A DNA stretch of 64,000 nt, taken from Leptolyngbya sp. SIO1E4 (lineage in GTDB: Bacteria > Cyanobacteriota > Cyanobacteriia > Phormidesmidales > Phormidesmidaceae). The stretch is taken from positions 248,001 to 312,000 of the forward strand of contig JAAHFU020000004.1 of the NCBI GenBank assembly GCA_010672825.2. Reading direction: 5' to 3'. Within the stretch, counting starts at the first letter, position 1; the number at the start of each line of letters is the position of its first letter. The position numbers and the translations under genes were made by a program. The notes under the pieces are model-generated. The model saw only the letters and a list, made by a program, of their open reading frames with translations. It was not told the origin of the DNA and did no database searches. Below, in pieces: positions 5,143 through 53,917 of this stretch.

Positions 5143-6438
5143 ATGTTTGCCCTGGTAGACTGCAACAGCTTCTTTGCTTCCTGTGAAAAGGTCTTCCGAC
5201 CAGAGTTGGAGGGCCAGCCCGTTGTGGTGCTCTCTAATAACGATGGCTGCGTGGTGGCCCGCTCCCCTGAGGCTAAAAAGTGGGTGCCGATGCAAGCCAC
5301 CTTATTTTCGATCCAAGATCTGATACAGCAGGGAGAGATCCATGTGTTCTCATCCAACCCTACCCTTTACAAAGACATGTCTCGTCGCGTCATTGAGACG
5401 CTCCAAAACTTCAGTCCAGATGTAGAACAATACTCGATTGATGAAGCCTTTTTAGGGCTCCATGGCTTTAATCAAAAGAACCTCACCGCTTATGGTCAGC
5501 AGATTCAGGTCACGGTCAAGCAGTGGACAGGGATTCCGGTTTCAGTGGGGATTGCCCGCACCAAAACCCTGGCGAAGTTGGCTGCCTACATTGCCAAACG
5601 CATTCCTGAGACAGGCGGTGTTCTCGATCTGCAAACGCTGGAGGGTGTTGATTCGGTTTTGGCTGACATTGACGTGGGGGAAGTGTGGGGCATTGGGCGC
5701 AATCTGCATGCCAAACTGCAGGCGATCGGCATTACCAATGTGCTGCAGTTGAAGAATGCCGATCAGGACCAGATCAAAAGTCATTTGGGAATTTTGGGGC
5801 TGAGGACGGTGCTAGAGTTGCGCGGTATCGCCTGTTTTCCCATGGAACCGGTAGCGACGCCTAAAACGATGCGAATTGTGTCTCGTTCTTTTGGCCGTTT
5901 GGTGAGTGAGTTGTCGGACATTAAAGAGGCGGTGGCCACTTACACGACCCGGTGTGCTGAAAAGTTAAGGGCTGATGGTTTGCTGGCCAGCCATTTTACC
6001 GTCACCCTCCGCACCCGCTACTACCGCAAGGAAGCCTCCTATGCGGCTGCCCGTTCGATCAAGCTGGATCCGCCGACTCACGATACGGCTGTGCTGATTC
6101 GTGAAGCCCTGCAGCTAGCTGAGGCAGCTTTTTTGCCTGGATACCACTATCTAAAAGCCAAAGTTATGGCGACTGAGTTAGTTCCAGCCAGTGAAGTGCA
6201 GGGCAGCCTATTTGTGTCGCCCCAAGAGACTGAAAAGCGAGACCGCTTGATGCAAACAATGGATCACCTGAATCGCACCCTCAAACCGGATGCGGTTAAG
6301 TTTGGCGCAATGGGATTTAACCCTACCTGGAAGATGCGATCGCAATATTTTTCACAACGGTACACCACCCACTGGGAAGAGATGCCAACCGTGAAAATCT
6401 GGAGTCAACAGCCCCCACCGGATTTGATCTCGTCATAG
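5143..6438 (+). CDS. umuC: Y-family DNA polymerase V catalytic subunit UmuC
   Basis: 431 residues, close to the usual UmuC length (about 420). The N terminus [18 protein letters not shown] holds the first catalytic Asp, and YSIDEAFL holds the paired Asp-Glu of the palm. [19 protein letters not shown] is the finger-domain signature. [17 protein letters not shown] and the helix-hairpin-helix region ([17 protein letters not shown]) follow, then the little-finger and UmuC-specific C-terminal part ending near [18 protein letters not shown]. It carries out error-prone translesion synthesis with UmuD'2. It is preceded by the truncated umuD in the same operon. The spacer holds a short imperfect duplication (GCAAGAGATAACT / GAGAGATAACT). 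Confidence 0.95.
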
Positions 6439-9962: not shown

Positions 9963-12900
9963 CGGCGGTGAGCCGCCTCATCATTTGGGGTAGCCGTGAG
10001 GACGATATCACCGGTATCACTCACAACCCATCCCTGGGCTTCTGTAATCGGTGCTGCATCCGGCACCGATTCAGGCAAGCGCAGATCCTCTAAGACGTCA
10101 TCGCTGCCGAGAACCTCTTCTGCCAGCGGGATGATTCCCCCACGCCCAGAGGTGTAAAACTCTCCCGGTGACGAGGCGTTTGCACCGGCCTGCTCACAGC
10201 CTTGCGCCAGCATTTGAGAGGCGTCTAAAAGCCCGGAGGGTAAAGCGACCAACCCCTGGTCAGGGTCAAGGTTGAGGGTGTTGATTTGAATGGTGCCGTC
10301 TACCCCTAACTCAGAACTGGCCCGAATGTCGCTGAATGCCGTGGGCTGAGCGCGGGGTTCGAGGCCAAAGACCCCTTGAGCCGTGATCTCAATATTGCCC
10401 CCTTGCCCCTCAAACGCATCGGCAACAATATCACTATCTTCTGTGGGGATGGCCACCACAAAGCCCTCTGACGCATCGATGGTAATATTGCCGCCATCAC
10501 CGCCTGCCTGGGCCAGCCCTGCTGTGGCTGAGATCAGACTACCGTTGCGCAACAGCAGTGCGTCTTGCAGGGTTAGCCTAATATTGCCCCCCTGATTTCT
10601 GGCCGTTGTTGCCGTGATCGTCGCACCGTTATTGAGGCTTAGAACATCTGCCGCTAGCTGAATGTTGCCGCCAACCCCAGTGCCTTGACTATTCGCTTCG
10701 ATAGTGGCGCCGTCTTCGAGGCTGATTTGCCGGGGGCCAGTAATGCGAATGTTGCCCCCGTCTCCGGTTGCCTCAGGGGCTTCTGTTCCGGCAAAGATGC
10801 CGGTTGTTGCGCCAGAGAGGGTCGCGCGATCGCGGATTTCTAGCTCAATATTGCCAGCATCAGAGCGGCCCTCGGTGGTCGTAAAGAGAAACCCCGCCCC
10901 GCGCATATCGAACTGGTTAGTCCTGATCATAATATTCCCCGATTCTCCCCCCGCCTCTCCCAGGGACGAGGCGCTGAACTGGGTCGCCTCACCGAGAGAA
11001 AACGTCTGGCTATTGACCGTAATATCGCCTCCCCGCCCTGGGGCGGAGGTCTCCGCTGATAGCCGGGCCCCATTCGATAAGGAGAAATCGCGAGTCGTAA
11101 TCTCGATATTGCCCCCATCCCCTGCGGAGCCCGGCAAGGCGTTGGTAGATATCGAACTCCGACCAAAGGCGGTGTTTCCATCCACGGCGATCGCCTCCGT
11201 GAGATTGAGCGTGATGTTACCTGCGGCACCGCTGCCCAACAAATCAGTGATGGCGGCTAGCCGAGCCCCATTCGTTAACGCCAAGGTTTGGCCGGTAATC
11301 TGAATATCTCCCCCCTTGCCGTCACGGGCCGTCGTGAAGACACCTGTTCGTCTGATCTGCCCTGCCTGGGTACTCACCCCATCAAACACGACTTCGTCAG
11401 CGGCAATGAAGACATCACCCGCGTCGCCCGTCCCAAACGAGGCGGTCAAAAAACTTGCCCCGTCGGCCACCCTCAGTTGAGGGGTGGTGATTGAGATATT
11501 GCCCGCATCTCCCTGTGACCCCGGAACCGCATTGCTAAACAAACTGGATGGGCCACTACCGTCTTGGCTGACCCCCTCTAAGGTGACCGACTCTGTGGCT
11601 GTTATGGTGATATCGCCAGCCGCGCCTGCGTTCAGAGCAAACGACGAGGCGTTGCCGCCCCCTACCATTTGCAGCCTGCGGGTCGTCAGGGTGACATCAC
11701 CGCTAGACCCGGTGGCTGCTTCATCGGAGACAGTAAAGAGTGAGCTGCCATCAAGGCTCACGGTATCGCGGGCCTGAATCACTATCGGGCTGCCTTCTCG
11801 CACCCCGGTTGTATAGGCCACAACGAATACTTCCTCCCCGAGTAATCGAACCGAGTCTGCTGATAACGTGATGCTTCCGCGTCTAGGTGAGGGGGTTGTT
11901 GCAGCACTGTTGCTGCTAATCACGCTGCTGCCTGTAGCTGAAATGGTCCCTCCACTTTGCAACAGAATATCGCCTCCGGAGAAGCCATTTGCCAAAATAC
12001 TCGATCCCTCCGTGAAGAGAATGTCACCCTGGGCTAAGAGGGCTACATTCCCCGCATTGGTCAAGGTTGCCGATGACGTAATACCACTCTCCATAAAAAT
12101 GTTGTTGCGGGCATCTAAAATAACGCTGCCCCCCTGGGTGTCAAAGCCTTGCACATCAATCCCATCGCCAAAGGCCCCAGCACCCGTGACAGTGATATCT
12201 CCCCCTGCCAGTGCGGGATTGGGTTGATATTGATTGGTGAGCAGCACTAACCCATTGGCAGCCGGGATAAAGACGTCTCCCACTGTGATATCGGCGCGGG
12301 TGGCCGGGGCTGTTAGGGTGGGGCCTTCTAAAAAAATATCTGTGCCGGCGTCAACGCCGGTAATGCCGATGACTCCGATCGCCTCAGGGCTGACCCCAGC
12401 ACGGATGTCTAGGGTGGGTTGGGCGCTGCCATCAATGGCAACGGCTGCTCCATTAGAGAGCTGAACCGTGTCTTGCAAGAACCCCTCGGTCGGGGCTCCG
12501 ACTTCGGGCTGGGTAATGGTGAGGGTGCCGATGTTAACTGAGCCCCCGGCCAAAATATGTAAAGAACTGCCGATGTACGCGTTAAAAGCAACATCCCCTA
12601 GGGTGCGGATCACTGGGTCATAGGGGCTAGCCAGGTTTCCTAGAGCCCCCGCCAGGGTTGTAACCTGAAAGTTGCCTCCACTCCAGTACTGGGCATCGCC
12701 TATGACTGGGGTTTCGCTTTGCAACTGCATATCTCCCCCCGAGAGCAGCCCGCTCTCGGGATGATTGAGAGCAAAGATATCAAGGGTCTGGGTCCCTTGC
12801 ACCAGCAGCTGGTCGTGCGCTGCGATCACTAGCGGCTGACTGCCGCTGTCGCGCAATCGCACGCTGTCGGTGCCAACCAGGCTCAGATTTCCGCCCGCGT

Positions 12901-13528
12901 GGAGCTGCCCTTGGATGTCTAATTGACCTGCGGTGAGGGTCAGGTCTTGGCCCACCGCTAAGATCCCTCGATTGATCAGGGTCGTTTGGCTGGCGGCGGC
13001 GCCTTGATTGCTGCCAAGCTGTAGCCCTGGATTGAGGGTGACGGTGAGCAGCGGCGGTGCCTCTGGCTCTGTGGCGCTAAATGTGGAGCCCTCTGCAAAG
13101 ATCAGGCTATCGGCTGTGCTCGCCGTGAATGAACCGCGAATATCGAGCTGGGCATTGGGGCCAAAAACAATGCCATTGGGATTGAGCAGAAACAAATTTG
13201 CGGTGCCGTTGGTGCGCAGCAGACCATCGATATCAGACACGGAGTCGCCCGTGACGCGACTGAAGATATTCTCGATGCTAATCGAGTTGTTGAAAACAGC
13301 TTCGCCCCCTGTAGGTACCGAGAACTCAGTAAAGCTGTGAAACAGGTTGCCACCTTGCTGGGTGCCGCCTTCAACGGTGCAAAGGGTGCAGCCCGGTGCA
13401 ACGCTGGAGGGGGTCGGCAGGGTATTGTCAGGGATGATTTGGGCGGGGGTGAGGGGGGCGATCGCAAGACTCCCGATAGCGGCCAGCCCAACCGTGGCTC
13501 CAGTCGCCCACCAGCGTGTCTGTTCCAT
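9950..13528 (-). CDS. Filamentous haemagglutinin-type TPS exoprotein (TpsA-like)
   Basis: About 1,190 residues. ATG 13528 (MEQTRWW) is preferred because GTGAGGGT lies about 8 bp upstream; the frame remains open to 13552. A signal peptide ends near PLTPAQIIPD. The N-terminal TPS domain carries the NPNGIVFGPNAQLD motif and FHSFTEFSVPTGGEAVFNN. The rest is a repetitive beta-helix with recurring GNI-x-ITA/T and TLSNGARLSAxT units. It would be secreted to the cell surface by a TpsB Omp85-type pore, but no TpsB gene is in the window. It lies between a membrane-protein gene (about 33 bp upstream) and the CHAT gene (13-bp overlap). Confidence 0.9.
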   Translation of the reverse strand: MEQTRWWATGATVGLAAIGSLAIAPLTPAQIIPDNTLPTPSSVAPGCTLCTVEGGTQQGGNLFHSFTEFSVPTGGEAVFNNSISIENIFSRVTGDSVSDIDGLLRTNGTANLFLLNPNGIVFGPNAQLDIRGSFTASTADSLIFAEGSTFSATEPEAPPLLTVTLNPGLQLGSNQGAAASQTTLINRGILAVGQDLTLTAGQLDIQGQLHAGGNLSLVGTDSVRLRDSGSQPLVIAAHDQLLVQGTQTLDIFALNHPESGLLSGGDMQLQSETPVIGDAQYWSGGNFQVTTLAGALGNLASPYDPVIRTLGDVAFNAYIGSSLHILAGGSVNIGTLTITQPEVGAPTEGFLQDTVQLSNGAAVAIDGSAQPTLDIRAGVSPEAIGVIGITGVDAGTDIFLEGPTLTAPATRADITVGDVFIPAANGLVLLTNQYQPNPALAGGDITVTGAGAFGDGIDVQGFDTQGGSVILDARNNIFMESGITSSATLTNAGNVALLAQGDILFTEGSSILANGFSGGDILLQSGGTISATGSSVISSNSAATTPSPRRGSITLSADSVRLLGEEVFVVAYTTGVREGSPIVIQARDTVSLDGSSLFTVSDEAATGSSGDVTLTTRRLQMVGGGNASSFALNAGAAGDITITATESVTLEGVSQDGSGPSSLFSNAVPGSQGDAGNISITTPQLRVADGASFLTASFGTGDAGDVFIAADEVVFDGVSTQAGQIRRTGVFTTARDGKGGDIQITGQTLALTNGARLAAITDLLGSGAAGNITLNLTEAIAVDGNTAFGRSSISTNALPGSAGDGGNIEITTRDFSLSNGARLSAETSAPGRGGDITVNSQTFSLGEATQFSASSLGEAGGESGNIMIRTNQFDMRGAGFLFTTTEGRSDAGNIELEIRDRATLSGATTGIFAGTEAPEATGDGGNIRITGPRQISLEDGATIEANSQGTGVGGNIQLAADVLSLNNGATITATTARNQGGNIRLTLQDALLLRNGSLISATAGLAQAGGDGGNITIDASEGFVVAIPTEDSDIVADAFEGQGGNIEITAQGVFGLEPRAQPTAFSDIRASSELGVDGTIQINTLNLDPDQGLVALPSGLLDASQMLAQGCEQAGANASSPGEFYTSGRGGIIPLAEEVLGSDDVLEDLRLPESVPDAAPITEAQGWVVSDTGDIVLTATPNDEAAHRRCWR

Positions 13529-13561
13529 CGATTCAACCCTCACTGTGTACACCCACGATGC

Positions 13562-14407
13562 TTAATCCGCAAACCCTGACCCCAGGAGAACCCAAAGGAG
13601 AATATTGCTGACTATCCACGCTGTCCCGATGCCGCTGCTCAGGGTCACCACGGTTTGGGTGGCGCGATTTGCCCGCTGCCGCAGCAACAGAACTGCGATC
13701 AGCGTGACACCAATCCCCACAACCATTGCCCCTTGATTCACTACCCGATCCCAAGTCTCAGATGTAAACCCATAGGGGGTGACGGCAGCGTACGGCACGC
13801 TAGCTAGCGTAATCCAAGCCCACTGATAGAGGATTAATCCCCAGACGAGGCTGGCTAACCCTTTGGTTAACCAATGCGGATGCCGCCAGGCAAAGTAGGC
13901 CGCTATCACACCCGCAACCAGAGACAGCCCACTGCTGATGTTGATCAGACGTGATTCGCCCAAGGTTAGCAGGGTTTGAATTCCCCAGTATTTTTGCTGC
14001 ACCGCTTGCAACTGTTGCGGGCTCAATGCCAGGCCGGTAACCTCAAACGCCTCTGAGGTTATCGGTGCATAGTGGAACCCTTTACTGAGGCAGCTAATCG
14101 ATTGCCCATTGTATTGAGCCTGACACTGGCTTGGCCCAAAGTCAGTCATAGTTTCTAAAACCAGCACTAATGACTGGCCTTGAATGTCTGCCTGACACTC
14201 AGACCGCTGTCCGGTTTCTGTACAGTTGAAGATGCGATTAGGCAGGGCAATCGTTGTATCGGAGCCAGCGTTGATATAAACCCCGGCAAATGGCACATCT
14301 ATTCCCCCGCCTCGGGCTTCAAACACCAACAAAAATAGAAAAGAGCTAAATAATATAATCCATAGACCAAGCAAAAATCTTGTTAGGAAAATGCGCAAGC
14401 GACGCAT
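13562..14407 (-). CDS. Four-TM membrane protein of unknown function
   Basis: 281 residues. TM1 at about 8-30, an extracytoplasmic Cys-containing domain of about 125 residues (Cys in NCTETG, SECQAD, PSQCQAQ and ISCLSKG, potentially two disulphides), then three or more TM helices (ISSGLSLVAGVIAAYFAW, LASLVWGLILYQWAWITL, GAMVVGIGVTLIAVLLL). Not assigned to a named family. First gene of the apparent operon with the TPS and CHAT genes, so it may anchor or monitor that system. Confidence 0.7.
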   Translation of the reverse strand: MRRLRIFLTRFLLGLWIILFSSFLFLLVFEARGGGIDVPFAGVYINAGSDTTIALPNRIFNCTETGQRSECQADIQGQSLVLVLETMTDFGPSQCQAQYNGQSISCLSKGFHYAPITSEAFEVTGLALSPQQLQAVQQKYWGIQTLLTLGESRLINISSGLSLVAGVIAAYFAWRHPHWLTKGLASLVWGLILYQWAWITLASVPYAAVTPYGFTSETWDRVVNQGAMVVGIGVTLIAVLLLRQRANRATQTVVTLSSGIGTAWIVSNILLWVLLGSGFAD

Positions 14408-15004
14408 CGCGTCTAACCTCCATCGAGTTAATTTGTTTTAGAGATGTCTCAGAGATCTTTCAAGATGAAAACTGATGCACTAGACGAGCCTTCAAGGGGG
14501 AGTGCAAGATTCCCCAGGTAGCGCTACCCTTCTGATTCGCTCAGGTGAATTCATGGGTCAGAAGACGGTCCTTTTCTCTTGAGAACATAGACACCCTGCC
14601 TTTAGCCAGGAAGGAAAAAGCGATCGCGATTGCTCGTATGTAACTGTTTGAACTGCCTGACTCCTGAGTTCTTCAAACGTAACAATCCATGGGATTATCG
14701 TGATCCAGTTTATGTAATCTTCAAATTAATTTCTATTGCCCTGTAACACTCTGTTGGATGATGATTAAGCCGTCGTGTTTAGCGACAGATCGGTAAAAAG
14801 ATCTCAAAAAAACAACCCTGAAATTCTGTCAATAGCCTCATCTCTTCACGGAGGTTTACATTGTGAAGACAGGAGAAGATTGCCTTGTCTTTAATCTGGT
14901 TGATTCAAGGGGGGAAGGTCTCTCGGCGTGCTCCAAGCAATCACGTGGCGCGGGATGATTGTTATTGGCACTCTTCCCAAACGGCTATGGGAATAGCCAA
15001 TTGG
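14408..15004. other. 597-bp intergenic region upstream of the TPS operon
   Basis: Contains no convincing ORF. Probably holds the promoter of the minus-strand operon starting at 14407. Its right end contains the palindrome listed at 14990. Confidence 0.4.
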
Positions 15005-15011
15005 CTATTCC
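14990..15011. promoter_or_regulatory. 22-bp perfect palindrome at the end of the DUF928 gene
   Basis: Left half GGAATAGCCAA (14990-15000) and right half TTGGCTATTCC (15001-15011) are exact complements and overlap the stop codon of the DUF928 gene. As RNA it could form a 9-bp stem with an AATT loop, but no T-tract follows. It is either a weak terminator or processing hairpin, or a protein-binding site. Confidence 0.5.
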
Positions 15012-15769
15012 TCCTCTTCTAGGGGCAAAACAGGTCCCAAAAATTGAGCGTCTCCGACAGATTCTGCCTCAATCAGCTGCAGTAGTTCCTGCCATTGAGC
15101 GGATAGCTGACTCTCTTGGGGAGAGGCTTGTAGGCGATCTGCAACGCTTGCCAGGGCGTCGTACCAAATCTCTGGAGACCCTGCCTGGATTTGTTGTGCC
15201 CGTTCGGGTGTCAGGGCCACTCGCTGCATTGCGCCATGCAGGGTCAGGTCAGGTTGGGTGTCTTCATCGTCTTCACAGTGCAGCTGAAAATACCAGCGAT
15301 AGATTTGGTCTTCTGCCAGCGCATACTCCGGCACCTCAGGTAGGGTGATACTGACGATCCCGGGGGACGCGGGTAGGGTGAAGCGAGTTTCATAATGGCG
15401 GATTTCTTCATCGGGCCAAAGCAGCAGAGAAAACTCACCGTATTGAACATCTTCAGCACCCGCGGGAATGTAAAACAAAACCGTAGGATAGGCGCGGGTG
15501 GTCAAGACAGGATTTTCGGCGGGAATCAGTGCCCGTAAGCCATCGTTGAGAGGACTGCACAAAGACTCATCAGGGTTGAGCCCGCCCCCCGGTCGGGTGC
15601 CATTTGGAGGGGGGGCATTGGGGGGAGGCGGGGGTGCTTGGGTGGTTCCTGCCATGGGCGTGCGGGCAGGGGCGTTTTGAGGAAGCCATAGAAGGGATAG
15701 CACCAGACTGCTGGCTAACGTACCTGCGATCGCAATGGGTAGCTTCTGAAGGGTCATTCTGAATTCCAA
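15005..15769 (-). CDS. DUF928 family exported protein
   Basis: 254 residues (MTLQKL at 15757 is an alternative start). A signal peptide, a Pro/Gly-rich linker, then the DUF928 core: LCSPLNDGLRALIPAENPVLTTRAYPTVLFYIP, EIRHYETRFTLPASPGIVSITLP and YRWYFQLHC. The last 25 residues are acidic. DUF928 proteins are predicted periplasmic beta-rich proteins regularly found beside CHASE2, DUF1822 and TPS genes in cyanobacteria. Function unknown. Confidence 0.88.
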   Translation of the reverse strand: MEFRMTLQKLPIAIAGTLASSLVLSLLWLPQNAPARTPMAGTTQAPPPPPNAPPPNGTRPGGGLNPDESLCSPLNDGLRALIPAENPVLTTRAYPTVLFYIPAGAEDVQYGEFSLLLWPDEEIRHYETRFTLPASPGIVSITLPEVPEYALAEDQIYRWYFQLHCEDDEDTQPDLTLHGAMQRVALTPERAQQIQAGSPEIWYDALASVADRLQASPQESQLSAQWQELLQLIEAESVGDAQFLGPVLPLEEEE

Positions 15770-16059
15770 AGGGGCGACAGGTTAGACAGAGAATTTCCCA
15801 AAGATCACTTTGCCTAAGTTCTTCCCTAGTCAGCATTAGCCTTTCATCAGAAAGAACTTGGGAAGATGCCTCACAGTAGCTCGCTCCTGCTGTTTATACA
15901 CATCTTTCACGATCCGCGTCAAAAGGTTGCATTTGCCCCCTTTGTTCCCAAAGTTGAGGGAACCTGCGCTTGCAGTCTCCCAGAATGGGGGGATTGAGAA
16001 GGCAATGCACTGAAATGGAATGGGAAGTGACTGATGTATACGCTGCAGCAGTTGCTTGT

Positions 16060-18564
16060 TCAGAGGCGATGCTTGGAACTTCTTCTCAAGACTACAAACC
16101 CGCCGGTCAGCAATACGGATAATCCTGTCGGGATTAATGGTAGCCAGAGTCCTTGGCTTAAGGCGACTAAACACAGGTAAGAGAGGCCCCAAGTCATTGC
16201 GACTAAGGTCAGAATTGCCCCCAGCCGCCATCCCAGCCGCAGCCCTAACCGGCGCGATCGAAGTCTGCGCGTGTGCACCCAATGGCTAACGCCGCCACTG
16301 AGTAGCGACCCCCCTAAGATCCACCCTGCATCTCCCCATTGAAAACTTCGCCACTGGGGTAACACCTTGATCAAGGGCCGTTGGTCGAGCACCGCACTTA
16401 ATAGCTGACTCACCATATGCGCATGGAGCCAAACCCCCGCCATTTTGCCATAGGGGGTATCTAGGGTATCTCGGGCAACTGGGGCAGTGTACCCCACCAA
16501 GACGAGTCGGTCTTGCACCCTATCAGCACTGATTTGCCCTGCGAGCACCTCTTGTAAAGATACCTGCTGACCGGGCTGGGCGGCCCGATAGTTCAGCATG
16601 AGCTGAGTGCTCAAACCATTGAGCGTTTGATATCCGCCGAATCGGCGAGTGAGGGGCTGAAAAACCACAGAGCCAAACTGCCACTGGTCATTCTCGGTGA
16701 CCGTGAGGGGCTCAATTTCTGCCTGATGCAGATATCGATAGACAAGTTGAAGGCTCAGACTGTAGGGCGTTGAGCAGCGTGACTGGGTTGAGGCCAGATC
16801 GGGGTTATATGACAGCAAGTGACGACGAACGACTCCCCCTGGCTGGGCCGCCTGCTGAGGTACTACCGTGGTGACATTACGATGCTGTCCCAGCATCTGG
16901 GTAGGCTTGTCTAAAATAACGTTACTAAACCCGACCTGTTCTATGCGCTGATTATCTGAAAACTCGACAGGGGGGTCATAGTCTTGAGCGATCTGATCAA
17001 AGGCACACACCGTAAACAGATTTGAATGCTGCTGAAAGTGGTTGAGTAATGGCTGACGCCCTGCTCCCCTGGGGCGATGGCGATGCATGTCGAGGGCAAT
17101 GGCGGTAGGTCGCAAGGCTTGGAGAACCTCGACCGTTTCTGCGAGAACGGCATCGGCTAACGGATAGCCCCCCAACGCATCCAAATCAGTTTGAGTGACT
17201 TCTACGATCAAGATGCGCGAGTCAACTGTCTCGGCTGGGCGCGATCGCATCAGGTAATCATAGGCGGCCAGCTCAACTGGCTGCAGTATCCCCAGCAGCC
17301 GCAGGGCTACGATCACCCCCGTCACGATGATACTGATCCAGAGCCTGCGAAACCCTGGGAAGGGGGATGTACTAGAAGCCCTGGCTGGGGTGGCTGGGGC
17401 GATCGGTTTTGCCCCCCTTAGCTGGGGTCTTGACTGAGGTGTTGGCTGAGGTGCTGGCTGAGGTGCTTGAGCCGGTTGCCCCTGCAGGGTTTGCCAGTTG
17501 GGGGGCGCCACGAGCGGATTTTGGTAAATGACCGGCAACCAACTGGCACAGGGAAACTGATGTTCTAACCCTTGCAGTCTTTCTCGGGCTTGACGAACGC
17601 ACAGATAGAGCGCCTCACCGGTGGCAAACACTTCTAAAAAATACTTTAAAAACGCCTCGGCTACCTGGTCAGCGACAGGCTCTCGCATCACAATCATCTG
17701 CGGGATGCCCAGGTGTTCGAGGGCGGGCGCCAGCCCTAAGCCATCACAGGAGTTAAAGATCGCCAGCTGTAAGCCCTGGTCAATGGCCCGGCGCAACCCA
17801 AAGCGCAGCTCTGAGAGCGACAAACTGTCAGTCTCGTTGATAAAGATGCGTCCCTGACTACGGTGGGTTTCGCTATGCCCGGCAAAGAATAAAATATCCC
17901 ACGGCGTTTCCCACAGCTGATCGTTAAGCTGCGGCAGATCGGGCTCCACTAAAAATGACACCTGAGCCTGGGGTAACTGAGCCAACACCTGGCGATCTGC
18001 CGCAACATTGATGCCGTGACTGTGCCCTAAAATTGCCAGGATTCTAACCGGATGAGGAGACCCCGGCTGCATTTTGGGCTGTACTGATTCGTATTCAGGG
18101 GTGCTGAGTGCGACTTCTGCATAGGGATAGCGCTCAAAAAAATCCCACTCGTGCCAGGGCAACTTTTGGAGATTGAAATCTTGGGTGCGGATCAAAAAGC
18201 GAATCACCTCATGGCGGCTGAGTTCTTCCCGCAGGCGGCGATCAATCGGCTGAAACGATTCGGCATTCAGCCAGGCCCGAAAGCGATCGCGCAGCGCCTG
18301 GGCCGAGCGTTGACAATCTGCCAGACGCTGACTAATGGAGCCTTTGTGGATGATTTTTTGGCCTTTAATGCGGAGTGGAACGCCCAGAGGCCGATAGACC
18401 CCATGCCAATGGTGGCTGAGTTGGGCTGCGATTGCAGGAGACGGCGGTAAAAAGCCTTTCACCTTTAGGGCTGGGAAGTCATTTTCAGCCCGAATTTCCA
18501 AGGTTGCCCGAAATCCGGTGAGGTTAAAATCCCCCTCTAATTCCAGGATGACCCACTTATCCAT
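16060..18564 (-). CDS. CHAT-CHASE2 membrane sensor protease
   Basis: 834 residues. The N-terminal part holds an alpha/beta region and then a CHAT-like peptidase domain with His230 (FFAGHSETH) and Cys273 (IFNSCDGLGLA). A Pro/Gln-rich linker (about 365-400) leads to a TM helix (LWISIIVTGVIVALRLL), then a CHASE2 extracytoplasmic sensor domain (AAYDYLMRSRPAETVDSRILIVEVTQTDLDALGGYPL and VLVGYTAPVARDTLDTPYG) and C-terminal TM helices. This implies an outside sensor controlling an inside caspase-like peptidase. The upstream DUF1822 gene is 35 bp away, so the two are co-transcribed. Confidence 0.9.
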   Translation of the reverse strand: MDKWVILELEGDFNLTGFRATLEIRAENDFPALKVKGFLPPSPAIAAQLSHHWHGVYRPLGVPLRIKGQKIIHKGSISQRLADCQRSAQALRDRFRAWLNAESFQPIDRRLREELSRHEVIRFLIRTQDFNLQKLPWHEWDFFERYPYAEVALSTPEYESVQPKMQPGSPHPVRILAILGHSHGINVAADRQVLAQLPQAQVSFLVEPDLPQLNDQLWETPWDILFFAGHSETHRSQGRIFINETDSLSLSELRFGLRRAIDQGLQLAIFNSCDGLGLAPALEHLGIPQMIVMREPVADQVAEAFLKYFLEVFATGEALYLCVRQARERLQGLEHQFPCASWLPVIYQNPLVAPPNWQTLQGQPAQAPQPAPQPTPQSRPQLRGAKPIAPATPARASSTSPFPGFRRLWISIIVTGVIVALRLLGILQPVELAAYDYLMRSRPAETVDSRILIVEVTQTDLDALGGYPLADAVLAETVEVLQALRPTAIALDMHRHRPRGAGRQPLLNHFQQHSNLFTVCAFDQIAQDYDPPVEFSDNQRIEQVGFSNVILDKPTQMLGQHRNVTTVVPQQAAQPGGVVRRHLLSYNPDLASTQSRCSTPYSLSLQLVYRYLHQAEIEPLTVTENDQWQFGSVVFQPLTRRFGGYQTLNGLSTQLMLNYRAAQPGQQVSLQEVLAGQISADRVQDRLVLVGYTAPVARDTLDTPYGKMAGVWLHAHMVSQLLSAVLDQRPLIKVLPQWRSFQWGDAGWILGGSLLSGGVSHWVHTRRLRSRRLGLRLGWRLGAILTLVAMTWGLSYLCLVALSQGLWLPLIPTGLSVLLTGGFVVLRRSSKHRL

Positions 18565-18599
18565 CCGTGCACTCCTCAGCAGACGTTCTGCGGTGGTGG

Positions 18600-19565
18600 C
18601 TATATCTCAAACCGCTCCGTCACGGTGAACTGATTAAACGTGATCTGCACACTAAATCGTTCACCGGCTCCACCACTAAAGTGAAATTCTAACCCTTCAC
18701 TCTGACGTCCCTCGGCTTGTAAAACCGGTGTGTTGGCTTCATCCATGACGACCATCTGTAACGTCGCTGGCAAATAGGCCTGATTCCCCGCTGGATAAAC
18801 CTCCACAGTGATATTAAACGCCGATTGCTTCTGGGCGGGCATAATGCCAACGATGAATAAAACCCGCTCTTCAGAGACTTTGCTCAGGGTTAAAAATTTG
18901 CCCTGCTTAACCCCGGCGGTTGCTGGCTCAATCAAGCCAGTTTTGGCGGCTGGGGTTCTAAAACTGAAGGCGCGATCTTGCCCTTGCCACTCTGCTATCA
19001 GCTTATCTAAGTTGGTCCAGCTGGCATCCACGATCTGGGCCAGCCAGTGCTGTAACGTCACTCTGGGCGCCGACGATACGCTTAAACAATGGCGCAGCTG
19101 CTCTAGATATTCTGGAAAAGTCTCTAATGACTGCAGCTGCCCCAGAGGAACGCTCGCCGCTTCAGGCTGAGGGAGAAACCCGAGTAAGGTCGCTTCTGTG
19201 AGTGCGGGGTCAACTTGGACAAACAGATACCCAATGCGATCAGCCCACGCCTCTGATGGGATGTCTACCGTAGACGAGTCTGGGAGCACTGGGCGACATT
19301 CTAAACGGCCCAGGTTGCCTACCCAGAGGTCAGCCGTATCGGCTAAAACCTGTAACGTTGGGTTCCAGCTTTCACTTTTTTCTAAAGAGGTTTCGATCCC
19401 TAAACAGGTTAGGTAAAACTGTGCTGCCTGCACGCTAAGCGTGTTCAAGTAGACCCGCTTCCTCTTTTGGGGTTCACTGTGGTGGTGGTAAAACCCCTGA
19501 GCAGCTTGATGAAAAGCGTCTGTAAGAGGCACCCTAAATGTGGTCTGGTCGCGTTTGACAGTCAT
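18600..19565 (-). CDS. DUF1822 family protein
   Basis: 321 residues. Hallmarks of DUF1822: an N-terminal FHQAAQGFYHHHSEPQKRKRVYLNTLSVQAAQFYL stretch, DIPSEAWADRIGYLFVQVD, and a central LQSLETFPEYLEQLRH. No TM segment. Always seen in cyanobacteria next to sigma-like and CHASE2/CHAT genes, but its biochemical role is unknown. It follows the sigma-like gene by 29 bp and precedes the CHASE2 gene by 35 bp. Confidence 0.9.
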   Translation of the reverse strand: MTVKRDQTTFRVPLTDAFHQAAQGFYHHHSEPQKRKRVYLNTLSVQAAQFYLTCLGIETSLEKSESWNPTLQVLADTADLWVGNLGRLECRPVLPDSSTVDIPSEAWADRIGYLFVQVDPALTEATLLGFLPQPEAASVPLGQLQSLETFPEYLEQLRHCLSVSSAPRVTLQHWLAQIVDASWTNLDKLIAEWQGQDRAFSFRTPAAKTGLIEPATAGVKQGKFLTLSKVSEERVLFIVGIMPAQKQSAFNITVEVYPAGNQAYLPATLQMVVMDEANTPVLQAEGRQSEGLEFHFSGGAGERFSVQITFNQFTVTERFEI

Positions 19566-26349: not shown

Positions 26350-26387
26350 TGTCAAATATTGCATCGAACTCGATGCAATATTTGACA
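26350..26387. other. 38-bp near-perfect palindrome between P4 and P3
   Basis: Left arm TGTCAAATATTGCATCGA (26350-26367), centre AC, right arm TCGATGCAATATTTGACA (26370-26387): 18 of 18 pairs. Lies just after the P4 stop. No T-tract follows on the minus strand. Could be a 3' stabilising hairpin that sets the P4:P3 ratio, or a protein target. Confidence 0.85.
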
Positions 26388-39383: not shown

Positions 39384-41492
39384 TTACTCTGCCTGCCCAT
39401 CGAGAAATGCCTTGTAGGCGCTAAGTTTACCCCGGTTGAAGGTTCTCTCATTTTTGGCCGTGACCCCAATACGCTGATTTTCTTGATTGACCTCTTCTCG
39501 ATAGTCTTCCAGAAAAGATACGGCGGCATCTCTGTGGATACCTTTGGAGTTGAGGATGCTTTGGTTGATCAAGATGGCCCGTTCTGGATGGGCTTGGTTC
39601 CATTGTTTTGTGAGGGCCCAAATCTTCTCAGCTCGCTTATAGGGGCTGGCCTGATGGCCAGACTCTTCACTCTGGCTTGGGCGAGTTTCCTGACGGCGAG
39701 CAGCAGCAGGGGAGGCGTCTTTTTCCGATTTCTTAGGCGGCTTAGCTTCGTCTGGAGACAGCTCAGGCATATTTAAGGCTTTACGGATTGAGTTGAGACT
39801 CTCTAAGGTTTCTTGCCATTGGGTGCGATAGGCTTCTGCCTTGGCGTGCAGTTTTTTCTTTTCATCGGTGGACTCTTGAAGCTGTTGCTTGAGGGCTGAA
39901 ATTTGGGCTTTGTAGCGGGCAGTATCACCAGACGCTTCAACTACGGTCGGTGGCGCTGCCGCATCGTTGGACGGCAGGCTAGAGGCTTTTACCTGAGTCT
40001 CTAGCATCCGAATCCGCTCATGCTGCTCGGCGATCACGCGAGCTTGGGTTTCGACCGTTTGAGACTGCTGCCCGGCAATGCGCTGGAGGGTGTCTACCAA
40101 TTGTTGGTTAATCATGTCGTCGTCCTTATCGGAAAAAGAAGTCTTGGCTGTCGGCTCGACGTCTGCCTCATCTGCCTCGTCTGCCTCGTCTGATTGATCG
40201 ATTTCAGCTGTTTCGGCTGTTTGGAGCGGGGCGATCGCCGAGGTATCCCTATCCACGTCGGGCGATTTCAGCGCGGCTGCTTTTACTGGGGAAGGTTGCG
40301 CCTGTGTAGCGTGAGCCTTCTCCTCAAAGTTTTGCTGTAATGCAGGTAGGAGACCACTGCTGGGAACCTTGACGCCCCTAGCCCGAATAGATTTTTTACC
40401 TCTCACCAGGTAGTAGTGGAAGTAATGATCCGTAGCCCTAGAGTTGGGGGCGATTTCTCCTTCTAGAACGTGGCCCAGATAATATTGCAAGAAGCGATGC
40501 TCGCGTTTATGTTCAGGGCAGAAATAATGGATGGCGATCGCCCCATAGAGCCCTCGTAATCTGTGAATGGAGACGGTTTTGAACCCTTCTAAGACGGGAA
40601 CGATCTGGGTATCTCCGAGAAGACGGTGCACCCCTCGATTCACCCAGGCGTTGATCCGTCTAACGTTTGGATGCTCAGAAGGTTTACCCTCAATCTCAAT
40701 CATTTCTGGCTTTTCTCGGAGGCGGTTGAGGGCAGCCAGCACATCTACTGCAGGCAATAGCGTCAAAATATCAAACTCTATGGCGTCTGCTTTCTTCTGT
40801 TGGCCCGAAAAGGTCAGTAGATAGGGGTGATCCTGAAGCTTAAATTGCCCGAGAGAAACCACTTCGGTGTGTCGGCGTCCGGTTGCAGCCGCAATCCCCA
40901 CAATTAATTCCAGCGTGTCATTGGACTGGAGCAGTTCCTGCACCTTCTCCATGTAGCGATCCAGGTTAACGGGCTTCATGTTGTCCTGCCGGGTGTTGTT
41001 ATGTTTGGTCGTGATCCCTCTTAATTTGATTTGGGTCTGATAGTCATAGACTAAGAAATCTAGGGCATGATGCCTGCGTTCTACACCTGTGCCGCTGCCG
41101 TCTTGCTTGTTCCACTGTCGCTCATAGGAGTTTTGATAATTCAGCGGTATCTCTTTAGCCGCGATCGCATCTCGAATGACCTTAGTGTATTTCGGCAGGT
41201 AGTAGCTATTAATGCTGGAAGCAGGGTAGGCCTCTTCTAGAAGTGTGATTTCGGCTTTGCAGAGGCGCTCAATGGCATCACGGGTATCAGTTCCGCTCTG
41301 AGCCATCTCAACCAATTTGTCTTTAAACATCAGCGTCAGCAGCGATCGCTCTTTGCTGGTAAGCTTGGCACGGCTGTTTTTTTGAAGACGAAGGCGGAGA
41401 GTTTCTATGATTTCAGAGCGACTGAGATCGTAGGTTTGTGCCAGAGATTGAGCTTTCCGAGGGGGCATAGGAGCCTCTTTCTTTACCCACAT
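39384..41492 (-). CDS. Telomere resolvase (protelomerase) family protein
   Basis: 702 residues from ATG 41492 (MPPRKAQS at 41468, behind GAGG, is an alternative start). The central domain is tyrosine-recombinase-like in the protelomerase style: TGRRHTEVV (Arg206, Arg207, Glu210), the FSGQQKK motif (228-234, Lys candidate) found in TelA/TelK/ResT as FSGQxK, SIHRLRG (His310, Arg313), LGH (339-341) and the nucleophile region HYFHYYL (Tyr357 most likely). An acidic linker, a coiled coil (about 455-565) and a C-terminal helical module (KIWALTKQWNQAHPERAILINQSIL) follow. Such enzymes cut replicated palindromic telomeres and seal hairpin ends of linear replicons. The family call is from motifs. Confidence 0.82.
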   Translation of the reverse strand: MWVKKEAPMPPRKAQSLAQTYDLSRSEIIETLRLRLQKNSRAKLTSKERSLLTLMFKDKLVEMAQSGTDTRDAIERLCKAEITLLEEAYPASSINSYYLPKYTKVIRDAIAAKEIPLNYQNSYERQWNKQDGSGTGVERRHHALDFLVYDYQTQIKLRGITTKHNNTRQDNMKPVNLDRYMEKVQELLQSNDTLELIVGIAAATGRRHTEVVSLGQFKLQDHPYLLTFSGQQKKADAIEFDILTLLPAVDVLAALNRLREKPEMIEIEGKPSEHPNVRRINAWVNRGVHRLLGDTQIVPVLEGFKTVSIHRLRGLYGAIAIHYFCPEHKREHRFLQYYLGHVLEGEIAPNSRATDHYFHYYLVRGKKSIRARGVKVPSSGLLPALQQNFEEKAHATQAQPSPVKAAALKSPDVDRDTSAIAPLQTAETAEIDQSDEADEADEADVEPTAKTSFSDKDDDMINQQLVDTLQRIAGQQSQTVETQARVIAEQHERIRMLETQVKASSLPSNDAAAPPTVVEASGDTARYKAQISALKQQLQESTDEKKKLHAKAEAYRTQWQETLESLNSIRKALNMPELSPDEAKPPKKSEKDASPAAARRQETRPSQSEESGHQASPYKRAEKIWALTKQWNQAHPERAILINQSILNSKGIHRDAAVSFLEDYREEVNQENQRIGVTAKNERTFNRGKLSAYKAFLDGQAE

Positions 41493-41560: not shown

Positions 41561-41587
41561 ATGCAAACGGATACTCACCGTTTGCAT
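41561..41587. promoter_or_regulatory. Inverted repeat upstream of the telomere resolvase gene
   Basis: Arms ATGCAAACGG (41561-41570) and CCGTTTGCAT (41578-41587), 7-nt centre. Lies 69-95 bp upstream of ATG 41492. Fits an operator. The arms are short and the centre is not palindromic, so it is a poor candidate for a replicated telomere. Confidence 0.55.
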
Positions 41588-41760: not shown

Positions 41761-44091
41761 TCAACTCGGTGAGAACAGGCTATCTCTGATTTCCCGCCTC
41801 ATTCCACGACTGGCATAACAATCGTTGCCTCTACTTAAACAATTCAGCAGGAGCGTATTGGCCTCGTAATAACGCTTTAACAGGGTTGTTTGCTGGCGAG
41901 TGAAGCGCCAGTCATGGCCAATGTTGCGATGCCGCATGAGGATCTCTCTCAATTCTTCAGTCCACGAGTGACCGTTCGCTTTCCACGTTGTCAGTATCGC
42001 TTTCCCCTCGGCTGGGGGCAGTGCCTCCGTGAGCTGCTGAAGAGATTTTCTCAAACTAAGATCAGGGGTCTGATTTAGGGCACTGATCAGGGTGCGACTT
42101 AAGACACGACGGTGATCTTGAATGCGCTCAAGGCAATATTCCTCATCCTCTGTGGTAGAGAGGGTGTCTATCCGCTCAAGACGAGCACTCAAATTTTGAG
42201 CGCGATTGAGGGCATATGTGAGATCGAAATCCAGATCAAGGTCTACGTTGCTGCCCTGATAAATACTACGAGCTTTGGGAAGCATGATGTCGAGCGCGAA
42301 ATAGAAGATCCTAGATTGTATGCTGGAAGGCGGCCCCTTAACCGATGCTGCTTTCTGGTTCACCCAACCCAGGAACTTCTGCAGATGCTGATCAGCCGCC
42401 ATCAGGTTATTCGCATGAATTTTCATCAGGCCGAGGAGATAGTCTGAGTTTGGCAACATGCCAATCGCCAAGAGAAAGACCTCTCGCCATCGTTTTTCTG
42501 AGATATGGGAAACCAGATTGACAAGAGCCTGCTCTTGAGCTTTAGGATCAGGGATATTGACAATCTTGCGGGCAACAAAATACTCATGAAAGGTCAAATG
42601 GGAGAACGAGTAAATCGTCCGAGCCCGTTCTACTAAAAGCCCATGTTGAACTTCTATCGCCTTGAGAACCGCATTACTGTCCAGCTGTAATGACTTTAAA
42701 TCTCGACTGACATCTGGAAGGTGTTTGATATAGTCTTTAACCTCATATTCAACCGTCTTCTGCTTGAAGAAGTATTCGCCGCGGTCAAAGGTTGTATAGG
42801 CAATCTGACTCAGCAGATCTTCTTTACGCTGTCGCGATAAATTGCGATAGGTTTGGCCGCGCTCGATATTACGTTTGGCATCCCATCGCTTCAGTAATAC
42901 GTCTAACCCTTCTTCATAAAGCTCTGAGCGATTTGTCGGAAAATCTCCTGAATCACCAAAAACGATGCATAATAACGTCAGCAATAGGGGGCTGGTCGCT
43001 AGCTCTTGAATTCTTCTATTTTGCTTGAGTTGAGCTATGAATTTAGCGGACTTAGGCTCGTCTTGAGCAAATCTAAACCAGTTCTTGGAAAACGCAATAA
43101 TCTGTTTGCCATTGAAGTCTGCAATCTCAACTTCTGTGAATCGCTCAAATGCATATTCTTGGGCTGCGCTTCGACAGGTGATGATAAATCGATTGCCAGA
43201 GAATTTGTTAGAAAAAGCCTGAATCTGATTGGTAATATGCTTTCGATCGGCATCAGTTACTTCATCCAGGCCATCTAACAAGATAAGCAGGCGAGAATAG
43301 TTTAACAACTGCTCTAGTTCGTATCGTTCTAGCCCACAAAGCTCAAACTTTTTGAGAATATACTGAAAAAGATCTGGCTTTACTTGATCTTCAGCAAAGC
43401 GTCTGAGTGGAATAAAAATAGGAACATGATCAGCGAGTAATGCTTGCCGAATACATTGAATTGCTAAAAACTTTAAGAAAGTTGTTTTACCTGAACCTGG
43501 CTTCCCTAAAATGACTAGCCGAGGATGGTGCTCAACGAACTTGAGCGCGGCAAATCTCTTCCCGGGTGTTATCCCTAATTTGGCCCCATGAAAATCATCA
43601 ATTTCTGGATTAAAGTCCCTAATTAAATCAGCAATTTGTATATGCCGACTGGAGGCAATGTGATCGGAGACCTGAACTTCGGTATAGATAGCCGTTACCT
43701 CAACGGGGTAGTTGGTATCAAGTACGCGCATAGAGCCGCAGTCTCTCCGAATCAGAGGCTCTAGCTTTTCGTTAACTTCCTCGACAAAGGTGTTGACTTC
43801 TTCATAGTCAAGATCTAGGTAAGAGTTGGGATTATCTCTTTGATAGATTTCAAAGATCCGAGAGAGTAATCTCACCAGTTTGCCTGGCCCACTTCCATCA
43901 ATGCCAAACTTTTTGTAGACACCTGTCATGCGGCTACTGTATCTATCTCGGGAGATATTCAGTTCTTTGGCGACAACAATATCTGTCTTTTTAGTATCTT
44001 TAAGTCGTTCTAGAAAAGCCTCTTTCTCATATGAAGTTAACCCATACTGATCAGCTAACCGATTCAGGAAGCCCGATGGTATCGCACGCAT
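41761..44091 (-). CDS. NACHT NTPase with N-terminal HTH and NCH C-terminal domain
   Basis: 776 residues. N-terminal winged-HTH-like region (FLERLKDTKKTDIVVAKELNISRDRYSSRMTGVYKKFGI, 27-64). NACHT NTPase at about 170-430 with Walker A GKPGSGKT (196-203) and Walker B LLILLDGLDEV (268-278). Helical region with the bacterial NACHT signature QHGLLVERARTIYSFSHLTFHEYFVARKI. The C-terminal third has no recognised repeats. Bacterial NACHT proteins are STAND NTPases, several of which protect against phage. The gene lies 270 bp upstream of the telomere resolvase on the same strand. Confidence 0.9.
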   Translation of the reverse strand: MRAIPSGFLNRLADQYGLTSYEKEAFLERLKDTKKTDIVVAKELNISRDRYSSRMTGVYKKFGIDGSGPGKLVRLLSRIFEIYQRDNPNSYLDLDYEEVNTFVEEVNEKLEPLIRRDCGSMRVLDTNYPVEVTAIYTEVQVSDHIASSRHIQIADLIRDFNPEIDDFHGAKLGITPGKRFAALKFVEHHPRLVILGKPGSGKTTFLKFLAIQCIRQALLADHVPIFIPLRRFAEDQVKPDLFQYILKKFELCGLERYELEQLLNYSRLLILLDGLDEVTDADRKHITNQIQAFSNKFSGNRFIITCRSAAQEYAFERFTEVEIADFNGKQIIAFSKNWFRFAQDEPKSAKFIAQLKQNRRIQELATSPLLLTLLCIVFGDSGDFPTNRSELYEEGLDVLLKRWDAKRNIERGQTYRNLSRQRKEDLLSQIAYTTFDRGEYFFKQKTVEYEVKDYIKHLPDVSRDLKSLQLDSNAVLKAIEVQHGLLVERARTIYSFSHLTFHEYFVARKIVNIPDPKAQEQALVNLVSHISEKRWREVFLLAIGMLPNSDYLLGLMKIHANNLMAADQHLQKFLGWVNQKAASVKGPPSSIQSRIFYFALDIMLPKARSIYQGSNVDLDLDFDLTYALNRAQNLSARLERIDTLSTTEDEEYCLERIQDHRRVLSRTLISALNQTPDLSLRKSLQQLTEALPPAEGKAILTTWKANGHSWTEELREILMRHRNIGHDWRFTRQQTTLLKRYYEANTLLLNCLSRGNDCYASRGMRREIRDSLFSPS

Positions 44092-51511: not shown

Positions 51512-53917
51512 TCAGCCCTCGCACGCCTGTAGCGTTGCCTGAGCACTGGCGAGCCTGGGTGAGCCGAGCTGAGTGAAGATGGCCACGGCCCGACGAGCGT
51601 AGGGCAGGGCCTCGGCAGCTTGGCCCTGGCGCACTAGGGCTTTGGCAATGCGGTTACAATTCGAGGCGATCAATTCCTGGTGACCCACTCTTTCCACCAA
51701 GGGCAGCGCCTCGCGGGCCAGAGCCTCGGCTCCCGACCAGTCTTCCCGGTCCAGAGCCAGGGCAGCCAGATTGCCGGTGAAGATGGCCACGCCCTCAGTG
51801 TAACCCACCGCACGGGCCACCCGCAGCGCTTCGCGATAATGCCGCTCTGCTGCCGTGAAATTGCCAGAGAGCTGCTCGACGTCGGCGAGGTCATTCAGGG
51901 TAAGAGCCACATCCTTGCTCTCAACAGACAAACTGCGATGCAGGTCAAGCACCTCGCGATAGGCAATGAGCGCGGCGGGGTAATCCTGCTTTAATTGATG
52001 CCCGATGCCCCGCAAGCGGATGGCGATGGCGCGCTCACGGGCACCGGCCTGTGCCGCCTGCCAGTGCGCCGCCACTTGGTCGGCACAGGCTAGCACCGCG
52101 TCTGCCTGCTGGCGCAGAGAGTGAATCCATCCCGCTTGACGAGCTCGCCAGCCCGCATAGTATAGATCGTCCGCCGCGATCGCCCTGGCTTCTGCCTGTT
52201 GGCTGAGAGAAAGCCATTCATCCCAGCGACCTGTGAAGTCGAGGAAGTCATCGAGCGCATCGCACACGGTTTGCAGGCGGGGATTGGGGCCAGCGAGGAA
52301 AAGCGGGATCGCGGGGGCCACGGTGGGCCAAGCGTCAGCGAGCAGGGGAAAGCGCTCATAATTCTGATAACCGTTCTCGACAATGAGGGCGTAGGCATAC
52401 TCCTCCAGGCGGTTGCTGGTCTCCTTGATGACCTCTGGCTGTTTCCGCCGCAGGAAGTCAGCAACCATGGGCACGAGGGCAAAGTAGCAGTCTTCTAAGT
52501 CTGGTAGTACCAGAGCCCGGTTGGCGAGATCGCTCAGGGCACCTTGGGCAGCCGCTTCATTGAGGCTGGCCAGTTCGGCGATGAATTTTGCCGCCATTGG
52601 CGTGGTGAAATGGGTGAGGGCGGCGAGCACTTTGGTTTCATTGGTGGTGAAGGTGTCGAGCAGGTCGCCGAAGATAAATTCCAACGGGTTATTCGCCGCA
52701 GGGGCACTACGCAAGAACGCGAGGGCATAGTTGATAGTTTTGCAGCGGCCCAGGCCAAGCTGCCCCACAACCCAGCGCATCAGCAGTGGGTTGCCACCGG
52801 TTTCTTCATAGAGGGCGCGGCGTTCTGGTTCGGGGGTGTGGGCCAGTTGGTCATTGTGCTTGGCCAGCTCGGCAAGGAGGGCCAGGGCAGCAGAGGGGGT
52901 AAGCTTATCGAGGCGCACGATGCTGGCGCTCGCATCGGCCCGGCGGCGGCTGGTGACAAGGGCGCTACAGCCCCGAGGGAGACGATTGAGGAAGGCAAAA
53001 AGCTGGTCGCGGTCGCTTGCAGGCAGGGTTTCAAGATTGTCGAGCACCAGCAAGACCTCGGCCTCCCGCAAGGCCCGCAGGACTGCCTCTGAGCGCTCGG
53101 CTTCCGGCGATTTCGCCAAATCTGGCTGCGCTAACTCACGGGCAATGGCATTAAGCATTTCCAGATAGCTTGGCAGCACGAAGTCTCCCAGCGCCCGCTG
53201 CCCATCGGCGGTGAGTTCGCGCTCCTTTGATGAGAGGAATATGATGCGTCGGAAGCGCCCAGCAGGGATCAATTCGGCGGCCCGAATGGCGAGGGCCGTT
53301 TTGCCGATGCCACCGGGGCCATCAATCAGCGCCCCCCAAGCCCGCGCATCGGGCGCGAGGGCTGCGGCGATTTTCTGCAGCTCCGCCTCGCGCCCGAAGA
53401 AGGCGGGCAGGCGCGGCAGGTTGTTGGGGATGTTGGCCCTTGAGCGCCCGCTGCTACTGCCAGCGTCTTTTGTGTAGTAGCCTTTGGGCTGGCCTTCATT
53501 GAGGGCCAGCCGTTCGAGAATGAGCGTAGCGGCTTGTGCTGGCGTCTTGTGATCGAGTTCGACGAACCCAGCGGCGGGGCTCAGGCCATCGGCGGTGGCG
53601 TACTCGAACCGGCAGGGCATGACGCGCGGGCCATCCGCTCGGGTGAGTAATCCATAAATGTGAGTCCATTCCCACCCTGTCCAGCGCTTCACATCGTAAC
53701 GTGGGCAGAGCACCGGGACGATGAGGTCTGACTGTTCACCATAGAGCTGTGGTAGATATATGCCGAGGTTATATCGGGCAAACTCTGCCTCGTGATACTC
53801 GTCGTAGAGAATTTTATCCTCGCCAAACTGCTCGGCGAGGATGGCGGCCACTGCTTTGACAAACGCTCGCTTTTCTCCCGCAAAGGAGAAGGCGATGCGG
53901 AAACGCCGGGTACTCAT
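51512..53917 (-). CDS. TIR-NB-ARC-TPR protein (STAND NTPase)
   Basis: 801 residues. TIR-like domain at about 1-130 (FRIAFSFAGEKRAFVKAVAAIL, ILYDEYHEAEFAR, RWTGWEWTHI; Glu83 is a possible NADase Glu). NB-ARC at about 170-440 with P-loop GPGGIGKT (200-207) and kinase-2 LLVLDNLETL, plus an SALVTSRRR sensor. TPR repeats at about 600-790. Architecture matches plant NLR-like and bacterial TIR-STAND defence proteins. The gene is noticeably more GC-rich than the neighbouring peptide cluster. Starts 71 bp downstream of the giant LamG gene on the same strand. Confidence 0.88.
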   Translation of the reverse strand: MSTRRFRIAFSFAGEKRAFVKAVAAILAEQFGEDKILYDEYHEAEFARYNLGIYLPQLYGEQSDLIVPVLCPRYDVKRWTGWEWTHIYGLLTRADGPRVMPCRFEYATADGLSPAAGFVELDHKTPAQAATLILERLALNEGQPKGYYTKDAGSSSGRSRANIPNNLPRLPAFFGREAELQKIAAALAPDARAWGALIDGPGGIGKTALAIRAAELIPAGRFRRIIFLSSKERELTADGQRALGDFVLPSYLEMLNAIARELAQPDLAKSPEAERSEAVLRALREAEVLLVLDNLETLPASDRDQLFAFLNRLPRGCSALVTSRRRADASASIVRLDKLTPSAALALLAELAKHNDQLAHTPEPERRALYEETGGNPLLMRWVVGQLGLGRCKTINYALAFLRSAPAANNPLEFIFGDLLDTFTTNETKVLAALTHFTTPMAAKFIAELASLNEAAAQGALSDLANRALVLPDLEDCYFALVPMVADFLRRKQPEVIKETSNRLEEYAYALIVENGYQNYERFPLLADAWPTVAPAIPLFLAGPNPRLQTVCDALDDFLDFTGRWDEWLSLSQQAEARAIAADDLYYAGWRARQAGWIHSLRQQADAVLACADQVAAHWQAAQAGARERAIAIRLRGIGHQLKQDYPAALIAYREVLDLHRSLSVESKDVALTLNDLADVEQLSGNFTAAERHYREALRVARAVGYTEGVAIFTGNLAALALDREDWSGAEALAREALPLVERVGHQELIASNCNRIAKALVRQGQAAEALPYARRAVAIFTQLGSPRLASAQATLQACEG

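Follow-up and report, generated by a model that had tools for sequence, protein, structure and literature searches.

A predicted telomere resolvase of a cyanobacterial lineage in Leptolyngbya sp. SIO1E4 and the palindromic replicon ends of its relatives

KNOWN TELOMERE RESOLVASES AND HAIRPIN-ENDED REPLICONS

Much is known about hairpin-ended replicons from work on Borrelia, on Agrobacterium and on a few phages. In the scheme established for TelA, the palindrome at the meeting of replicated ends is cut, refolded and resealed, and Tyr201 is essential for hairpin refolding (PMC3558466). TelK carries a muzzle insertion and a stirrup, and ResT has a tyrosine at the position that is H310 in the protein described here (PMC3558466). 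The resT gene sits on the circular cp26 and serves linear replicons in Borrelia (PMC4379921), and Agrobacterium biovar 1 provides a further precedent for a trans-acting resolvase on a circular replicon (PMC13293297). For the Nostoc N6 plasmids pNPM8-10, hairpin ends were inferred by the authors from reads; the words telomere, resolvase and protelomerase are absent from the main text of that paper, which names no enzyme (PMC5987646). Our search of the open-access literature, with subscription papers outside its scope, found no paper tying the enzyme to cyanobacterial telomeres. The enzyme family is already known, as are the hairpin linear plasmids of one Nostoc strain (PMC5987646).

THE tel GENE AND ITS FAMILY

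The window analysed is a 64,000-nucleotide stretch of a 963,703-bp contig (C4) of the Leptolyngbya genome (G000). The gene, which we call tel, occupies window positions 39384-41492 on the minus strand and is an intact open reading frame of 702 amino acids, from the ATG at 41492 to the stop at 39384. In an alignment of the closest homologs, the other proteins begin near M9 (MPPRKAQ), and translation may therefore really start at 41468 and not at 41492. The Pfam family PF16684 (ResT-TelK_cat) matches residues 171-360 over all 181 profile positions with an E-value of 1.2e-51 and a score of 175.3 bits, compared with a curated cut-off of 27, and the same search returns no integrase family. A phmmer search of the PDB finds TelA structures at 4e-7 and ResT at 8e-4. 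A profile of 18 cyanobacterial homologs recovers TelK (4.9e-28), TelA (4.5e-21) and also ResT. The score against the TelA equivalog NF052462 is 23.7 bits, below its cut-off of 800, and by sequence the product is a relative of TelA and not TelA itself.

The initial annotation had read this gene as a telomere resolvase from the motifs TGRRHTE, FSGQQKK, HRLRG, LGH and HYFHYYL. All five are present in that order (T204-E210, from F228, H310-G314, 339-341 and 356-362), and the Pfam, TelA, ResT and TelK matches argue that the set is not due to chance. With agreement in both sequence and fold, the identification stands, and tel is, as far as comparison can tell, a genuine member of the family that seals linear bacterial DNA ends into hairpins. 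Its assignment to a cyanobacterial setting holds as well: the homologs are nearly all from cyanobacteria, and NCBI already lists homologs under the name protelomerase family protein. A phage collection gave just weak Vibrio phage matches, the best at 3e-7, and viral contigs contained neither a tel relative nor the telomere core described below.

The sister group of the window protein in the tree is the clade of G402, G440 and G435, with support of 100/100. The protein sits on a long branch (0.87) and shares 44-51% identity with its relatives, so it may recognise a changed target. Within that clade the dN/dS ratio is 0.08-0.18, and for the Gloeocapsa pair it is 0.21. Labels of hairpin status do not fall into one clade but require 7 changes, as expected if many assemblies lose their ends.

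ACTIVE SITE AND DOMAIN STRUCTURE

The catalytic domain (residues 171-360; 40413..40982, minus strand) contains R207, K233, H310, R313, H341 and Y357, and the active-site numbering was taken against TelA (PMC3558466). Arg255, Lys286, Arg366 and His394 of TelA align with R207, K233, R313 and H341, respectively. Y357 (40422..40424, minus strand) is invariant in the 18 homologs and is the candidate nucleophile; it is most likely the equivalent of TelA Tyr405, completing the same Arg, Lys, Arg, His and Tyr set. The two enzymes differ at Tyr363 of TelA, which is replaced by H310. Ordinary tyrosine recombinases have histidine at this position. The original motif reading was correct in its motifs and their order, while the HRLRG position needs correction for this substitution. 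Cyanobacterial members from hairpin plasmids have His or Lys there, and therefore the tyrosine is a trait of TelA and ResT and does not define telomere resolvases. The counterpart of TelA Tyr201 is Y149, invariant in a nine-sequence alignment of the closest homologs; TelA Arg205 aligns with T153 and has no clear counterpart.

The catalytic domain is preceded by an N-terminal helical region (residues 17-111; 41160..41444, minus strand), which aligns with TelA chain residues 152-206 and is helical in the model. It is followed by a predicted coiled coil (residues 456-572; 39777..40127, minus strand), modelled as two long helices with moderate to low confidence, and by a C-terminal helical module (residues 617-701; 39390..39644, minus strand) with a pLDDT of 88. 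The AlphaFold model was built from three sequences; its mean pLDDT is 53.9, and confidence is low across residues 298-470. The first eight matches in a fold search with this model are all to TelA (Z 13.9), TelK (11.7) and ResT (11.5), lower-ranked matches cover the coiled coil alone, and no integrase occurs among the 50 matches listed. The best structural match over the catalytic region, which could have been an integrase, is thus to TelA, TelK and ResT, and in a model of partly low confidence the product appears structurally nearest to these enzymes.

Both the catalytic domain and the N-terminal helical region align with TelA of Agrobacterium (PDB entries 4e0g and 4dwp), but TelA lacks the coiled coil and the C-terminal module. 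ResT of Borrelia (PDB entry 8vs5) has a similar catalytic domain (Z 11.5) and, unlike the tel product, no long C-terminal extension in that structure. TelK of phage phiKO2 (PDB entry 2v6e), the best match of the family profile, does carry a domain after the catalytic domain, as the tel product does. TelK differs in its muzzle insertion and stirrup. The cyanobacterial module gave no credible match in sequence and fold searches of the PDB. It may bind DNA in the manner of the TelK stirrup, by analogy. The module is common to most cyanobacterial homologs and recurs in nearly all of those aligned, including those from hairpin plasmids, which agrees with the early suggestion that the coiled coil and terminal module are a cyanobacterial elaboration. 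These parts make the protein a cyanobacterial variant of a known enzyme family.

A second, divergent homolog of 428 amino acids lies on contig C6 of the same genome (155063-156346; L048 9064-10347). It retains the C-terminal module but shows SQTRPSD at the TGRR position, and a ParA-like open reading frame ends within it.

PALINDROMIC ENDS OF REPLICONS CARRYING RELATED GENES

Many of the related genes lie a few kilobases from contig ends and point inward. In the taxonomic family of the window, a contig of 172,842 bp (G402:C7) has a 36-bp palindrome at its left end and a 44-bp palindrome at its right end. It carries two inward-pointing tel copies, the left one about 6 kb and the right one 4 kb from the nearer end, together with ParA- and relaxase-like genes. 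G440:C22 and G435:C82 have one palindromic end each, and an end palindrome with 36-bp arms is found on G401:C432.

Plasmid pGLO7428.02 of Gloeocapsa PCC 7428 is recorded as linear. Its terminal repeats are perfect and 1,340 bp long, and both ends open with the 36-bp palindrome TACATTGTTATATTGGAA|TTCCAATATAACAATGTA; C4 has neither feature. Over the catalytic half, the pGLO7428.02 enzyme and the tel product are 47.8% identical, and the two share the C-terminal module. The Gloeocapsopsis dulcis plasmid (NZ_CP119970), recorded as circular, contains a perfect palindrome of 3,476 bp centred on the pGLO7428.02 telomere. Fischerella NIES-4106 plasmids 4 and 7 (AP018302 and AP018305), also recorded as circular, have inverted repeats of 2.9 and 1.5 kb that meet at the record junction, and in the pC052_H record a 22-kb unit is present nearly as an inverted dimer. 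The linear plasmid pNPM10 of Nostoc carries repeats of 1.06 kb. Plasmids pNPM8-10 encode distant tel homologs, that of pNPM10 with the same C-terminal module, and their telomere AAATTAACRGAC is unrelated to TTGGAWWTCCAA.

The public plasmid records marked circular or dimeric (L056 2481-5956; the record ends of L063 and L067; L065) have the appearance of linear hairpin molecules that assembly closed or doubled in error, which suggests that in several records a circular annotation reflects misassembly of a linear molecule. At 2110111-2116269 of G027:C1 (L046/L047) there is an inverted repeat of 6,159 bp; a single base separates its arms, each of which contains a distant resolvase homolog. This repeat sits inside a 4.68-Mb contig with different flanks and may be an artefact or an integrated element.

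The telomeres of the window's branch (G402, G440 and G435) and of the Gloeocapsa branch have the common core TTGGA(W|W)TCCAA. The longer core TTTTTTGGAWWTCCAAAAAA, searched with at most one mismatch in 65 genomes of the order, occurs at five sites in four genomes, and a control pattern gave none. All five sites are palindromes running to a contig end, and each of the four genomes belongs to the 12 with a tel gene (hypergeometric p about 7e-4, ignoring kinship). The visible core is missing from the other eight tel-carrying genomes, that of the window included. The chemistry is known, while the architecture and telomeres are a lineage-specific variant. For cyanobacteria, the comparison yields a lineage of the enzyme, telomere sequences of three families and a prediction of the target site, so that ideas on how their linear replicons arose can be tested directly.

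CONTIG C4 AND THE PROPOSED ROLE OF THE ENZYME

C4 carries none of the 41 tRNAs of the genome, about five being expected at the genome-wide density. Its GC-skew minimum, at 249,063, falls inside a gene at window 698-2596 (plus strand) for a plasmid-type protein of 632 amino acids, a candidate replication gene with relatives in 66 cyanobacterial plasmid records. From the absence of tRNAs and the plasmid-type gene at the skew minimum, C4 is most likely extrachromosomal. The suggestion that this replicon may be linear found no support in C4 itself. The contig has no terminal repeat and no terminal palindrome, TTGGAATTCCAA is absent from the assembly, and none of the 24 contig ends in the genome is palindromic. 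A looser core has 14 matches against 14 for the control, which is the chance level, and the Gloeocapsa telomere core does not occur. Since eight of 12 tel-carrying genomes likewise show no visible core, its absence here is weak evidence. The tel gene is 288 kb from the nearer contig end and is not subtelomeric.

Two perfect palindromes, one of 50 bp on C4 (716160-716209, unique) and one of 58 bp on C6 (33953-34010), were dropped as targets because samples of contig C1 also hold palindromes of 38-40 bp. They are unusually long and spacerless and lie on the two contigs with resolvase homologs. Palindromes on contig C12 were set aside, as they adjoin transposase-like open reading frames.

We consider it probable that the tel product keeps a linear extrachromosomal replicon linear by sealing hairpins. 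Its binding site would be a palindrome containing the core TTGGA(W|W)TCCAA, formed where replicated ends join; the predicted target is drawn from the relatives around it in the tree, with TATATTGGAATTCCAATATA or CGTTTTTTGGAATTCCAAAAAACG as candidate palindromes. Y357 would serve as the tyrosine nucleophile in cutting both strands, and each cut end would, as in TelA, be refolded and sealed as a covalently closed hairpin. The replicon so maintained could be C4 or, with the enzyme acting in trans, a different one of this cell. Homology, the conserved active site, the palindromic ends of relatives and the common core are the observations from which this activity, its target and the replicon served are extrapolated. 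The wider reading we put forward tentatively: C4 may possibly be a linear megaplasmid of about 1 Mb with hairpin ends. It would then belong to a group of linear cyanobacterial replicons, widespread but little recognised and including several circular records, whose linearity is maintained by a resolvase lineage that has a coiled coil and C-terminal module of its own.

That the product is an ordinary tyrosine integrase or recombinase with a chance likeness to telomere resolvases is highly improbable. It would account for H310 where TelA and ResT have tyrosine, but not for the lack of a Pfam integrase match, the TelA-like N-terminal region, or a catalytic region that matches TelA, TelK and ResT alone in structure among the matches listed. 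The position of tel in the middle of C4 bears on two further explanations. The gene may have arrived on a linear plasmid that later merged with a circular megaplasmid or turned into one, leaving no hairpin end, so that the enzyme is unused or has another role. We regard such an orphan as unlikely: the genome has no telomere core, terminal repeat or terminal palindrome, and one relative lies inside a 5.46-Mb contig (G448:C7), but the 702-residue frame is intact with its catalytic and C-terminal module residues kept, and the missing core says little when most tel-carrying genomes lack it too. The other explanation is a sub-case of the preferred reading and differs from it over C4, which would be circular while the enzyme acts on a different replicon of the cell, a linear one. 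There are eleven other contigs in the genome, and Borrelia resT (PMC4379921) and Agrobacterium biovar 1 (PMC13293297) are precedents; nevertheless, no other contig end is palindromic and the relatives' gene sits on the linear replicon itself. We regard a circular C4 of this kind as rather unlikely.

SURROUNDINGS OF tel

An inverted repeat, ATGCAAACGG-7nt-CCGTTTGCAT, at 41561..41587 lies 69 bp upstream of the tel start and is a possible operator of the gene. A perfect 18-bp inverted repeat with a 2-base spacer is found at 26350-26387. Around tel, the window is dense in CHAT, CHASE2, TPS, NACHT and TIR/NB-ARC/TPR genes (7284-19565, 41761-44091 and 51512-53917), a signalling- or defence-like neighbourhood. 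In the relatives, synteny revealed no empty site, and the gene neighbouring tel is rare there.

Genes for UmuC-type polymerases with a small partner just upstream recur on tel-bearing contigs (window 5143-6438; L183 4044-5734; L184 16321-17984; L192 3209-4871; L180 10429-12673), and in G402 and G440 the polymerase gene adjoins tel. A homolog in a Leptolyngbya metagenome-assembled genome (L055:9423-12629) lies beside genes for Mu-transposase-C/rve, TniB and TniQ, which make up a Tn7-like transposition set. A short resolvase homolog on a plasmid of Nostoc UHCC 0926 (L053/L070 18083-19435) overlaps a nucleosidase gene and has large GTPase genes after it.
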